The notes beneath the pieces were generated by a model. It worked only from the letters and a program-made list of their open reading frames with translations, did no database searches and was not told the origin of the DNA. This document shows, in pieces, positions 49,771-61,509 of a DNA stretch of 64,000 bases (its first letter is position 1; every line of letters begins with the position of its first letter). The DNA is from Vibrio ponticus (GTDB taxonomy: Bacteria; Pseudomonadota; Gammaproteobacteria; Enterobacterales; Vibrionaceae), in the NCBI RefSeq assembly GCF_009938225.1, contig NZ_AP019657.1, forward strand, positions 372,001 through 436,000. Direction: 5' to 3'. The translations under genes and the position numbers were made by a program.

Positions 49771-50544
49771 GTGAAAAGTGCAGTCGAAAGGCGCATGGAA
49801 ATCGTCAACATGGTGAACCGAGATGGAAAAGCCCGTGTCGAAGACCTTGCCGCACAGTTTGATGTCTCTAGTGTCACAATTCGAAGTGATCTCAGTTTTC
49901 TAGAGAAAAATGGTTATGTTGTCCGCTCTCATGGTGCAGCCATTCCGAATTCTGGGGTAATTGCTGAACTTACTGTTCATGAGAAGCGTCGTCAAAACGC
50001 GGGTATGAAAACTCTCATTGGTCAGGCTGCAGCACAACTTATCGAAAATGGTGACACGGTTATTCTGGATTCGGGCACGACTACTCGTGAAATCGCTGCC
50101 AGCTTGAAGTCGCTGGAAGACGTAGTAGTCATGACCAATGGTCTGGATGTTGCAATGGAGTTGGCATCAGCACCTGGAATAGAGGTTTTGATGTCAGGCG
50201 GTGTACTTCGAAAGAATGCACTCTCTTTTTCGGGCTCACAAGCCGAACACAGCTTAAAGAACTATCGATTTGATAAAGTCTTTTTAGGTGTGGATGGATT
50301 TGATTTAAGAGCCGGTATCACCACACACAACGAGCAGGAAGCCAGTCTAAACCGCTTGATGTGTGAGATTTCGGAACAAGTGATTGCAGTTGCTGACTCT
50401 AGTAAGTTTGGTAAACGCAGCTGTCATATGATTCGCGAGTTCGGAAACATTGATATCTTAGTCACTGACGCTGATATTCCCGAAGAGTACGTACAGAGTC
50501 TTCGCGAAATGAAAGTTGAAGTTATTATCGTCGACAAAGAGTAA
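49771..50544 (+). CDS. agaR: DeoR-family transcriptional regulator of the aga locus (AgaR)
   Basis: This is a 257-residue DeoR-type repressor. The helix-turn-helix spans about residues 6-58 (RRMEIVNMVNRDGKARVEDL, DVSSVTIRSDLSFLEKNGYV), and the C-terminal DeoRC sugar-phosphate sensor contains DTVILDSGTTTREIA and VFLGVDGFDLRAGITTHNEQ. Those C-terminal motifs are typical of regulators that bind phosphosugars such as GalNAc-6-P or tagatose phosphates. The start is GTG 49771 behind a strong AAGGAGA site. It heads twelve same-strand genes, and CTTTCG/CGAAAG motifs lie before it and before kbaY, consistent with control of both ends of the locus. Confidence 0.88.
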   Translation: MKSAVERRMEIVNMVNRDGKARVEDLAAQFDVSSVTIRSDLSFLEKNGYVVRSHGAAIPNSGVIAELTVHEKRRQNAGMKTLIGQAAAQLIENGDTVILDSGTTTREIAASLKSLEDVVVMTNGLDVAMELASAPGIEVLMSGGVLRKNALSFSGSQAEHSLKNYRFDKVFLGVDGFDLRAGITTHNEQEASLNRLMCEISEQVIAVADSSKFGKRSCHMIREFGNIDILVTDADIPEEYVQSLREMKVEVIIVDKE

Positions 50545-50595
50545 CCCTAGCTAACTCCTTAACAGCATCGCAGATGTGGATTATGGAGTTAGTAC

Positions 50596-51882
50596 ATGAA
50601 CACCCTTCAACAAATCGTTCAACGACATAAAGCAGGCGACAACAATGGCATCTATGCTGTTTGCTCTGCTCATCCTCTCGTGATTGAGGCTGCCCTTAAG
50701 CAGGCGTTGAACGACGATTCTTTATTGCTAATCGAAGCTACCTCCAATCAGGTCGATCAATTCGGCGGCTACACAGGTATGACACCTGTTGATTTCCGTA
50801 ATTTCGTTTTAGAGCAAGCTGAATTACTCAGCTTTCCAACTGAAAAACTTATCCTTGGTGGTGATCACTTGGGTCCCAATCGCTGGCAAACGCTCAGTGC
50901 TGATGAAGCCATGCGTAATGCTGAGGATTTGATTGCCGCTTACGTTGCCGCAGGATTTAAGAAAATTCATCTTGATTGCAGTATGTCTTGCCAAGGCGAC
51001 CCTGTGCCTCTTTCTGACGAAATTGTTGCCGAACGTGCAGCAAGATTGGCAAAAATTGCAGAAAGTACGGCTATTTACCATTTTGGTTCAAGTGATATTT
51101 GCTATGTGATTGGCACCGAAGTGCCGGTACCTGGTGGGGCTGCTGAAGAGTTAGCCGAGCTGGAGGTGACGTCACCGCAAGCGGCGATGAAAACCATCGA
51201 ATGTCATAAAGCCGCTTTTGCGCAGGCGGGTGTTTCTGAGTGTTGGACGCGTGTGATTGGTTTAGTTGTTCAGCCTGGCGTTGAATTTGACCACACTGGC
51301 GTTATCGACTTTTGCCCAGAGAAAGCCCTCGAACTGAGTAAAGTTGTCGATCAATTTGACCACATGCTGTTTGAGGCTCACTCGACAGATTACCAAACAG
51401 ATAAAGCTTACCAAGCATTAGTCGCCGGTCATTTTGCCATTTTGAAAGTGGGACCCGCACTGACATTCGCAATGCGAGAAGCCCTGTTTAATCTTTGCGA
51501 TATCGAAGAAGAGATTGTCGCTAAAGCACATTGTTCCAACTTGCGTGAAATGATCGAACAGCAGATGTGCAAGATGCCGGAATATTGGAATAAATATTAC
51601 CACGGTGATGAACACCAACAGCGCTTTGCTCGTTGCTACAGTTTTAGTGATCGCATTCGTTATTACTGGCCAGATGAAGCGATTCACCATGCCCAAGAAA
51701 CCCTGTTTGCTAACTTAGCGCGCACAGGTATCCCACTTCCATTATTGAGTCAGTATTTGCCAGAGCAATTCCAAGCCGTTCGTGCAGGACTGATTGAACC
51801 TAAGCCACAAGCCCTGGTTCTCGACAAGATTCAGCAGGTGCTGCGTAGCTACGCTAAAGCCTGTAAGCAATTCAGAGGTTAA
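50596..51882 (+). CDS. kbaZ: D-tagatose-1,6-bisphosphate aldolase, non-catalytic subunit (KbaZ/GatZ)
   Basis: KbaZ/GatZ stabilises the class II tagatose-1,6-bisphosphate aldolase KbaY/GatY and is needed for full activity. The 428-residue protein has the family N-terminus ([24 protein letters not shown] region), [19 protein letters not shown] and [13 protein letters not shown]. Length matches E. coli (426). It lies 51 bp after agaR, at the front of the operon, while the catalytic partner kbaY is the last gene, about 8.8 kb away. GGAG precedes the start ATG. The galactitol (GatZ) paralogue cannot be excluded by sequence alone, but the aga neighbours favour KbaZ. Confidence 0.93.
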
Positions 51883-51892
51883 GAGGTACAAA

Positions 51893-60547: not shown

Positions 60548-60550
60548 TTT

Positions 60551-60639
60551 CGAAAGTTTTCGCTTTGAAAGTATGTGTGATCTTGATCTATTTACTTTCT
60601 TTGTTTTTCGAATAATATTAAATCGAAAGTTAACGAAAG
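60551..60639 (+). promoter_or_regulatory. kbaY promoter region with CGAAAG repeats (candidate AgaR operator)
   Basis: CGAAAG occurs at 60551, 60624 and 60634; the last two are spaced exactly 10 bp, one helical turn, in CGAAAGTTAACGAAAG (60624-60639). A possible -10 TAATAT lies at 60613-60618 directly before them, with a weak TTTACT -35 at 60591. Binding there would block transcription of kbaY. The same words occur before agaR. Confidence 0.6.
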
Positions 60640-60654
60640 TTTTTAGGGTTTTGT

Positions 60655-61509
60655 ATGTTTTTGGTTTCATCGAGAGAAATGCTTCATAAAGCGCAGATTG
60701 GTGGTTATGCCGTACCTGCATTCAATATTCACAACTTAGAGACTGTACAAGTCGTGGTGGAGACCGCCGCTGAAATGCAATCGCCAGTGATTTTGGCAGG
60801 TACACCAGGGACTTTTTCTTATGCAGGCACTGATTACTTAGTCGGTATTTGTCAAGAAGCAGCCAAACGTTACAAGATGCCGATTGCTTTGCATCTTGAT
60901 CATCACGAGTCTTTTTCTGATATCCGTCAGAAAGTGGAAGCGGGGATCAAGTCAGCGATGATTGATGGCTCACATTTACCTTTTGAGCAAAATATTGAGC
61001 TAGTTAAGCAAGTCGTCACTTTCTGTCACCGTTGGGATTGTTCAGTTGAAGCTGAGCTCGGTCGACTAGGAGGGCAAGAAGACGATCTGATTGTTGATAG
61101 TAAAGATGCACTCTTTACCGATCCAAACGATGCGGTGGAGTTTATTCAACAAACGGGCATTGATTCACTCGCGATTGCGATTGGTACTGCACACGGTATG
61201 TACAAAGAAGAACCTCGTTTAGATTTTGATCGTTTAGGGATTATTCGTAGCCGTACAGATGTGCCTTTGGTTCTGCATGGAGCATCGGGTGTACCTGATC
61301 AAGATGTGCGCCGTTGTATCGAGCTCGGCATTACTAAAGTGAACGTTGCGACCGAACTGAAAATCGCTTTCTCTGATGCGGTGAAACACTACTTTAATCA
61401 AAACCCATCGGCAAATGACCCGCGTCATTATATCGCTCCAGGTAAAGCGGCAATGAAGCAGGTCGTGATCGATAAAATTCGAGTCTGTGGTAGCGAAGGC
61501 AAAATGTAA
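60655..61509 (+). CDS. kbaY: D-tagatose-1,6-bisphosphate aldolase, catalytic subunit (KbaY/GatY)
   Basis: KbaY is a zinc-dependent class II aldolase that splits tagatose-1,6-bisphosphate into dihydroxyacetone phosphate and glyceraldehyde-3-phosphate. The 284-residue protein starts [20 protein letters not shown], like E. coli GatY/KbaY in length and N-terminus. Zinc ligands are expected in [10 protein letters not shown] (about His82-83), [17 protein letters not shown] and [14 protein letters not shown]. The rest, [20 protein letters not shown], is conserved. It has its own promoter with CGAAAG repeats. It works with KbaZ encoded at the other end of the locus. GatY cannot be excluded by sequence alone. 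Confidence 0.94.

Follow-up and report, generated by a model that had tools for sequence, protein, structure and literature searches.

In Streptococcus agalactiae, the hyaluronan cluster gbs1886-1892 unites a mannose-family phosphotransferase system (PTS) with a cytoplasmic uronyl hydrolase and an isomerase for 5-keto-4-deoxyuronate (DHU); import of the unsaturated hyaluronan disaccharide by this PTS has been shown, and the PTS requires a free C6 (PMC6837340). Here we describe an operon of Vibrio ponticus that resembles this glycosaminoglycan (GAG)-PTS cluster but appears to be directed at a different disaccharide. It occupies positions 49771-61509 of a stretch of 64,000 nucleotides (assembly GCF_009938225.1, contig NZ_AP019657.1, positions 372,001 to 436,000), referred to below as the window. 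Among the traits of the GAG-PTS cluster, the window has a PTS and an unsaturated uronyl hydrolase but no GAG lyase, two PL8 lyases being located on contig C2 of the same genome. The streptococcal cluster relies on a GH88 unsaturated glucuronyl hydrolase, on DhuI/DhuD and on an N-acetylglucosamine (GlcNAc) unit, with no dehydratase or aga genes named in the accessible text of that source, whereas the window operon encodes a GH105 enzyme, KduI, a DUF2264 protein and a route for N-acetylgalactosamine (GalNAc).

Four further systems frame the comparison. The PUL-HA locus of Vibrio alginolyticus LWW-9, for which PTS import of a disaccharide has been proposed, places a four-part PTS and a GH88-family hydrolase beside two PL8 lyases; it is directed at hyaluronan, resembles the C2 locus of the V. 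ponticus genome rather than the window, and is described in a paper that does not contain the term DUF2264 (PMC8222515). The chondroitinase ABC operon of Proteus vulgaris includes sulfatase, unsaturated glycuronyl hydrolase and putative PTS genes, according to a 2022 review (PMC9067506); unlike the window, the Proteus operon carries lyases, sulfatases, kduD, a 2-keto-3-deoxygluconate (KDG) kinase and an aldolase, its genes lying in two divergent blocks. In polysaccharide utilization locus PUL25 of Bacteroides caccae, the dehydratase BcGDH primes chondroitin units for the uronyl hydrolase BcGH88, but the substrate is unphosphorylated and the accessible text names no PTS (PMC12269599). Finally, the aga operon of Escherichia coli shares agaR, kbaZ, a PTS, agaA, agaS and kbaY with the window but lacks uronate genes, and its IIC belongs to another part of the IIC tree.

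Judged from its sequence and its relatives, the window operon very probably serves the uptake and breakdown of chondroitin-type disaccharides, as a trimmed version of a gene set common to Photobacterium, Proteus and their relatives. The first-pass annotation had described twelve same-strand genes, with kduI, GH105 and DUF2264 lying between the AgaA deacetylase and the KbaY aldolase, and both the open reading frames (ORFs) and the family models bear this out. All twelve genes are intact, with open frames throughout:

49771..50544, + strand: AgaR, DeoR-family repressor (NCBIfam NF040755, 427 bits, cut-off 260)
50596..51882, + strand: KbaZ, tagatose-1,6-bisphosphate aldolase non-catalytic subunit (NF012002, 795 bits, cut-off 707)
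51890..53056, + strand: AgaS, galactosamine-6-phosphate (GalN-6-P) deaminase/isomerase (TIGR02815, 604 bits, cut-off 529)
53070..53570, + strand: PTS IIB, AgaV-like (PF03830; NF008508, 188 bits, cut-off 180)
53619..54389, + strand: PTS IIC, AgaW-like, of the GH105-linked class (class A, below) (PF03609; NF040757, 339 bits, cut-off 300; IIC tree)
54376..55272, + strand: PTS IID (PF03613; AgaE model, 246 bits, under the cut-off of 500)
55328..55771, + strand: PTS IIA, AgaF-like (NF040761, 164 bits, cut-off 130)
55774..56952, + strand: AgaA/NagA-like N-acetylhexosamine-6-phosphate deacetylase (TIGR00221, 309 bits, cut-off 226)
56970..57800, + strand: KduI, DHU isomerase (NF002091, 458 bits, cut-off 250)
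57888..58937, + strand: GH105-type unsaturated uronyl hydrolase, no signal peptide seen (PF07470; best PDB match 4ce7)
59066..60547, + strand: DUF2264/GH154 protein, predicted beta-glucuronate dehydratase (PF10022, 271 bits; matches to BcGDH entries 9o4u and 9nwf)
60655..61509, + strand: KbaY-type class II tagatose-bisphosphate aldolase (PF01116; TIGR01858, 522 bits, cut-off 444; 425 bits against the KbaY equivalog, under its cut-off of 542)
61687..62268, + strand: DJ-1/PfpI-family protein (PF01965)

The DJ-1/PfpI gene is counted as the final gene of the block because it holds the same end position in the Proteus mirabilis and Vibrio navarrensis plasmid loci described below. A further PTS gene, encoding an EIICB of the PF02378/PF00367 type, is found at 42916-44454, about 5 kb upstream of the operon.

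The transporter is a mannose-family PTS, with PF03610, PF03830, PF03609 and PF03613 all matched above cut-off, but it does not match the canonical GalNAc PTS (AgaVWEF) on all four subunits, IID being the one that fails. Loci fetched by means of GH105 are no test of the linkage between GH105 and a PTS class, so only a set anchored on IIC is informative. A search with IIC alone, blind to GH105, was therefore run on 296 Vibrionaceae genomes, 93 of which gave a match; neighbouring genes were scored at 107 IIC places, over 9 kb per side where the contig allowed, and presence was called at 40% query coverage, with KduD counted from 60% and sulfatases from 30% identity. The IICs fell into class A, at least 77% identical to that of the window (38 loci in 37 genomes), class B, resembling the IIC on contig C2 (7 loci), and class C, 39-46% identical (62 loci).

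Class A is accompanied almost without exception by GH105 (37/38), sulfatase (37/38), AgaS (37/38), AgaA (36/38), KduI (35/38) and KduD (33/38), and the sole locus lacking GH105 (L188) is on a contig that stops inside IIC. Chondroitinase ABC-type lyases occur within 9 kb in 9 of the 38 loci and other PL8 lyases in 8. In class C, by comparison, GH105, KduI, KduD, DUF2264 and sulfatase are all absent from the neighbourhoods (0/62 each), while AgaS (53/62), KbaY (52/62) and AgaA (50/62) mark most of them as canonical GalNAc loci. Nine class-C loci are without AgaS and are not plain aga loci, and three have weak PL8 matches (23-25% identity). The difference in GH105 linkage between classes A and C corresponds to a Fisher p of 1e-26, with loci counted irrespective of shared ancestry. 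As a member of class A, with its ties to genes for uronyl hydrolase and sulfatase, the window PTS is distinct from the GalNAc PTS found in other vibrios. Moreover, class C is also present in 6 of the 37 class-A genomes, and because the two coexist there they are not redundant; class B is found in at least two class-A genomes. One class-A locus, of Photobacterium (L067/L190), is a hybrid in which a class-A IIC and a class-B IIC occur together with KduI and KduD but without a sulfatase.

Class B combines GH105 and an RpiB-family gene (7/7 each) with DUF2264 and PL8 (5/7 each), and AgaA, AgaS and KbaZ are absent (0/7); from this gene content the class, including the C2 copy in the window's own genome, looks hyaluronan-type. 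Its loci (L191-L197) are without KduI. The RpiB-family protein on C2 (L011:13550-14191) matches streptococcal DhuI (gbs1892, PDB 4u8e) with 226 bits; a 2025 survey, as far as its accessible text goes, describes Pseudomonadota as being without a dhuD-dhuI cluster (PMC12838403).

The IIC phylogeny proposed in the first-pass annotation separates the same groups. Across Vibrionales, Enterobacterales and Pasteurellales, the class-A types group together in a single 66-row clade (support 100), which excludes the AgaW proteins of E. coli and Klebsiella, and the C2 type forms a clade of 12 rows (support 99). Both join with two Endozoicomonas rows (support 86), apart from the E. coli and Klebsiella AgaW, although this is a quick tree with long branches whose deeper joins are unsure. 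The window IIC is 44% identical to E. coli AgaW, and the NCBI AgaW model or name covers the IIC of all three classes despite their sharply differing neighbourhoods. A class-wide IIC search (369 genomes, three with a match, the window's own included) was too sparse for use.

Fuller versions of the locus exist in other genomes. P. mirabilis H110 (a 4.1 Mb record classed with plasmids) groups homologues of the window PTS, GH105, KduI, AgaA, AgaS, KbaYZ, DUF2264 and DJ-1 genes with a pair of chondroitinase ABC-type lyases (PF09093, 341 and 258 bits), a pair of sulfatases and an anaerobic sulfatase maturase. The same stretch encodes KduD, a probable KDG kinase (325 bits, under the cut-off of 400) and a 2-keto-3-deoxy-6-phosphogluconate aldolase, as well as a porin-like protein and an autotransporter. 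An equivalent set with chondroitinases and sulfatases is annotated on a conjugative plasmid of V. navarrensis, and several Proteus loci in the GH105-anchored scan likewise carry chondroitinase ABC-type lyases. The first-pass annotation had thought the use of GH105 with a GalNAc route unusual; this did not hold, as GH105 with this PTS type recurs in Vibrionales, Enterobacterales, Pasteurellales and Endozoicomonas.

Several variants were seen in passing. The V. navarrensis plasmid has a second IIB, IIC and IID copy near further chondroitinases and an integrase. The nine Pasteurellaceae loci have a DhuI-like RpiB protein and no KduI match, except in L078, and in six of the nine a divergent DUF2264 (43-48%) is encoded on the opposite strand. 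In E. coli SLK172 a hyaluronan-type PTS with GH105, DUF2264 and PL8 is found amid transposases, and a Yersinia enterocolitica plasmid carries such a locus too; similar IIC matches occur on Citrobacter and E. coli plasmids. Hyaluronan-type PTS loci of this kind seem mobile. With the window PTS genes as query, 46 of 5426 E. coli genomes matched, and SLK172 was the one examined.

The window hydrolase is best called GH105: its top match in both sequence and fold is the GH105 ulvan enzyme 4ce7 (33-36% identity), although 2 of its 10 PDB sequence matches carry family 88 in the depositor title. Residues D88, D133 and R204 are invariant in all 32 aligned rows, and D133 is presumably the catalytic acid, by analogy with D143 of YteR. 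A GH105-anchored scan confirmed 112 relatives among named genomes, of which 80 were kept; at least one PTS subunit lies within 10 kb of GH105 in 75 of the 80, and DUF2264 was seen in the flank of 30, a minimum figure since the flanks are of limited length. The five relatives without a PTS are distant (41-44%), come from Neomarinimicrobiota and Desulfobacterales assemblies, and include two with shorter flanks. As the first-pass annotation had stated, the window GH105 has no leader; hydrophobic leaders are missing from GH105 throughout the PTS-linked loci and present in three of the five non-PTS relatives (L087-L089, not L091 or L092). The hydropathy proxy behind these calls is rough: it flags 3/89 GH105, 4/39 DUF2264 and 14/67 AgaA rows (window included), as against 33/62 sulfatase, 24/26 PL8 and 35/38 chondroitinase rows. 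Three of the flagged DUF2264 rows (L001, L011, L074) have an upstream start set by script and the fourth (L076) is truncated.

The DUF2264 protein belongs to what we take to be CAZy family GH154, in agreement with the GH154 titles among its fold matches. The best fold matches of the window model are the GH154 entry 8oi4 and BcGDH. The latter, a GH154 enzyme of B. caccae, converts the terminal glucuronate of chondrosine to the delta4,5-unsaturated form and so prepares it for cleavage by GH88. Ten single alanine substitutions each left no activity, although the authors caution that chondrosine is a poor substrate (PMC12269599). Nine of the ten sites (E74, R78, N176, N177, W178, F181, Y229, R285 and Y289) align with E102, R106, N209, N210, W211, F214, Y260, R309 and Y313 of the window protein, and the tenth, Y354, corresponds to Y374 by motif only. 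The mapped residues are invariant in all 23 PTS-linked rows, and the window protein, which the first-pass annotation had left without a function, is probably a glucuronate dehydratase. The older GH154 label of beta-glucuronidase is not preferred, since the family member studied was reported as a dehydratase without hydrolase activity (PMC12269599). BcGDH measures 400-405 residues in the PDB, as against about 490-515 for most PTS-linked DUF2264 proteins.

Both enzymes show features that set the PTS-linked forms apart. PTS-linked GH105 proteins have an arginine-rich N-terminal loop (R30 in 27/27 rows, R26 and R36 in 25/27) that is not seen in the five non-PTS relatives; the full signature comprises 37 columns and may reflect shared ancestry alone, because the 27 PTS-linked rows were compared with only five others, all distant. 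PTS-linked DUF2264 proteins carry a C-terminal motif that reads R-x-x-R-P-K-N-N-L-L-R-K-G in the window (residues 469-481); some of its positions vary, while R469, R472, N475, N476, R479 and K480 are kept in 23/23 rows. The window model is poor in this region (mean pLDDT 63 for residues 471-480, below 50 from residue 478), and because confidence is so low the motif is not placeable relative to the active site. A tentative proposal, which we rate somewhat short of an even chance, is that the PTS-linked GH105 and DUF2264 proteins constitute dedicated cytoplasmic hydrolase and dehydratase subfamilies for hexuronyl-GalNAc-6-phosphate (GlcNAc-6-phosphate in the sister class), the phosphate being read by the R26/R30/R36 loop of GH105 and the C-terminal motif of DUF2264.

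In the pathway that we propose, the mannose-family PTS (IIABCD) would import a desulfated hexuronyl-beta-1,3-GalNAc, either delta4,5-unsaturated or saturated, and phosphorylate its GalNAc at C6 in the process. A saturated glucuronyl end would be dehydrated to the delta4,5 form by cytoplasmic DUF2264, whereupon GH105 would hydrolyse the disaccharide-6-phosphate to DHU and GalNAc-6-phosphate. The former would be isomerized by KduI and reduced by KduD (encoded on C2), KDG kinase and aldolase completing this branch; AgaA, AgaS and KbaYZ would convert the latter to triose phosphates by way of GalN-6-P and tagatose phosphates. Beyond AgaA on the GalNAc side and beyond KduI on the DHU side the reactions are textbook biochemistry, and AgaA-type enzymes act on the 6-phosphate. 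The gene content, the protein families, the conserved residues and the class linkage are observed; the substrate, the phosphorylation of the disaccharide and the order of steps we infer. Import of the whole disaccharide by the PTS would close the pathway: GH105 is without a signal peptide, AgaA needs a 6-phosphate, and neither the P. mirabilis ORF lists (at least 120 or at least 250 residues) nor the incomplete V. navarrensis annotation gave any indication of a further inner-membrane sugar transporter. The need of the PTS for a free C6 also fits the sulfatases of class-A loci. The claim of the first-pass annotation that this PTS carries a uronyl-GalNAc disaccharide split in the cytoplasm is thereby supported as the best reading.

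Several points weigh against it, and most of them suit a PTS that carries free GalNAc alone, with the disaccharide entering otherwise or being split outside and the uronate genes merely co-housed. The window IIC, IIB and IIA exceed the NCBI GalNAc equivalog cut-offs, and class-A locus L190 lacks the aga catabolic genes AgaA, AgaS and KbaZ. The impaired growth of a P. mirabilis ptsH mutant on chondroitin sulfate C speaks for the proposed pathway, but ptsH is pleiotropic: GalNAc and many nitrogen sources likewise support only poor growth of this mutant, and released GalNAc is the PTS substrate to which its authors point (PMC13289894). GalNAc is also reported to induce chondroitinase in P. vulgaris (review, PMC9067506). 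We nevertheless hold the GalNAc-only alternative to be unlikely. With a leaderless GH105 the disaccharide should reach the cytoplasm, for which the lists just cited offer no alternative transporter, and a kinase would be required for any free GalNAc released in the cytoplasm, whereas the sole sugar kinase in the P. mirabilis block best matches KDG kinase (no search for a GalNAc kinase was made). A separate canonical GalNAc PTS class is present alongside class A in the six genomes noted above, and the hyaluronan-type loci pair a like PTS with GH105 and DUF2264 in the absence of aga catabolic genes. The class-A PTS may carry GalNAc as well as the disaccharide.

The first-pass annotation had left the substrate as chondroitin-like or algal, and the chondroitin-like option is the more likely one. 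Another unsaturated uronyl-amino-sugar unit, of algal, plant or bacterial capsular origin, might be suspected from the ulvan hydrolase being the closest solved GH105 and from the absence of a lyase at the window locus. At 33-36% identity, however, 4ce7 says little on substrate, the chondroitinase ABC-type and other PL8 lyases of class-A loci and the Proteus lyases point elsewhere, and GalNAc catabolism fits chondroitin, so that we consider such a substrate highly improbable. An algal or pectic substrate in particular is disfavoured relative to chondroitin/dermatan, given that class-A loci carry sulfatases and, in part, chondroitinases.

What sets the window locus apart is its lack of parts: no sulfatase, kduD, lyase or KDG genes, nor remnants of them, were found in the window, where the lyase search gave only a chance-level PL8 match of 43 residues (E 0.09). 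Across the V. ponticus genome (4.8 Mb in three contigs), just two IIC genes of this family score above threshold, that of the window and a second near 423 kb of C2. The locus around the latter (L011) comprises two PL8 lyases, a DeoR regulator, IIB, IIC, IID, a IIA match, GH105, a CBM9 protein, the RpiB-family protein, DUF2264, an IclR regulator and KduD, with a sulfatase and a maturase-type radical-SAM protein nearby, beyond two other genes (L012). Of the DHU enzymes, KduI is encoded at the window locus and KduD on C2; two KDG-kinase homologues (43-44%) lie elsewhere in the genome.

Since most class-A loci possess the sulfatase and kduD missing here, the window copy could be regarded as a decaying remnant without function. 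We give this very little likelihood: the twelve frames are intact, the catalytic residues are kept, and kduD, two PL8 lyases, and a sulfatase with its maturase are available on C2. Furthermore, the DNA just upstream of agaR (49502-49770) is conserved in 28 of the 38 class-A loci (matches of 127-268 bp, 74-88% identity), and DNA further upstream gave no match to class-A loci within the 5.8 kb tested; because conservation is confined to the DNA adjoining agaR, it suggests a conserved control region.

Two negative results bear on chondroitin use by this strain. No chondroitinase ABC homologue was found in its genome, in searches run without a genome-level positive control; the P. mirabilis lyases are recognized by PF09093 as well as by PF02278, and in this genome the latter model retrieved the two C2 lyases alone. 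The Sulf2-type sulfatase of P. mirabilis likewise had no orthologue here, the best match reaching 30% identity. For these reasons the strain may not use sulfated chondroitin itself. The window copy would suit an organism that scavenges disaccharides already desulfated, or one that draws on the C2 enzymes, and we infer that the missing lyase, sulfatase and KduD are supplied either by genes at other sites of the genome or by other organisms.

The suggestion that the locus represents an undescribed variant holds in part. The P. vulgaris version is already noted in the review cited above (PMC9067506), and novelty is further limited by the proven streptococcal hyaluronan PTS. In the open-access literature we found no statement of chondroitin-disaccharide PTS import in Gammaproteobacteria, no paper on DUF2264 under that name, and no prior statement of the class separation, the DUF2264 role in a PTS pathway, the GH105 assignment or the trimmed variant. 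As far as we have seen, then, the class separation with its controls, the DUF2264 role, the GH105 assignment and the trimmed window variant are new; the novel chemistry, action of GH105 and DUF2264 on a phosphorylated disaccharide, is a prediction.

If the reading of this operon is correct, a conserved importer class in Photobacterium, Vibrio, Proteus, Edwardsiella, Yersinia and Pasteurellaceae, which database labels call a plain N-acetylgalactosamine importer, would take up disaccharides of the host matrix, and glucuronate dehydratase chemistry would extend from Bacteroides to a phosphorylating cytoplasmic pathway. Should the phospho-disaccharide subfamilies also prove real, one PTS would allow chondroitin disaccharides to enter catabolism in saturated and unsaturated form alike.

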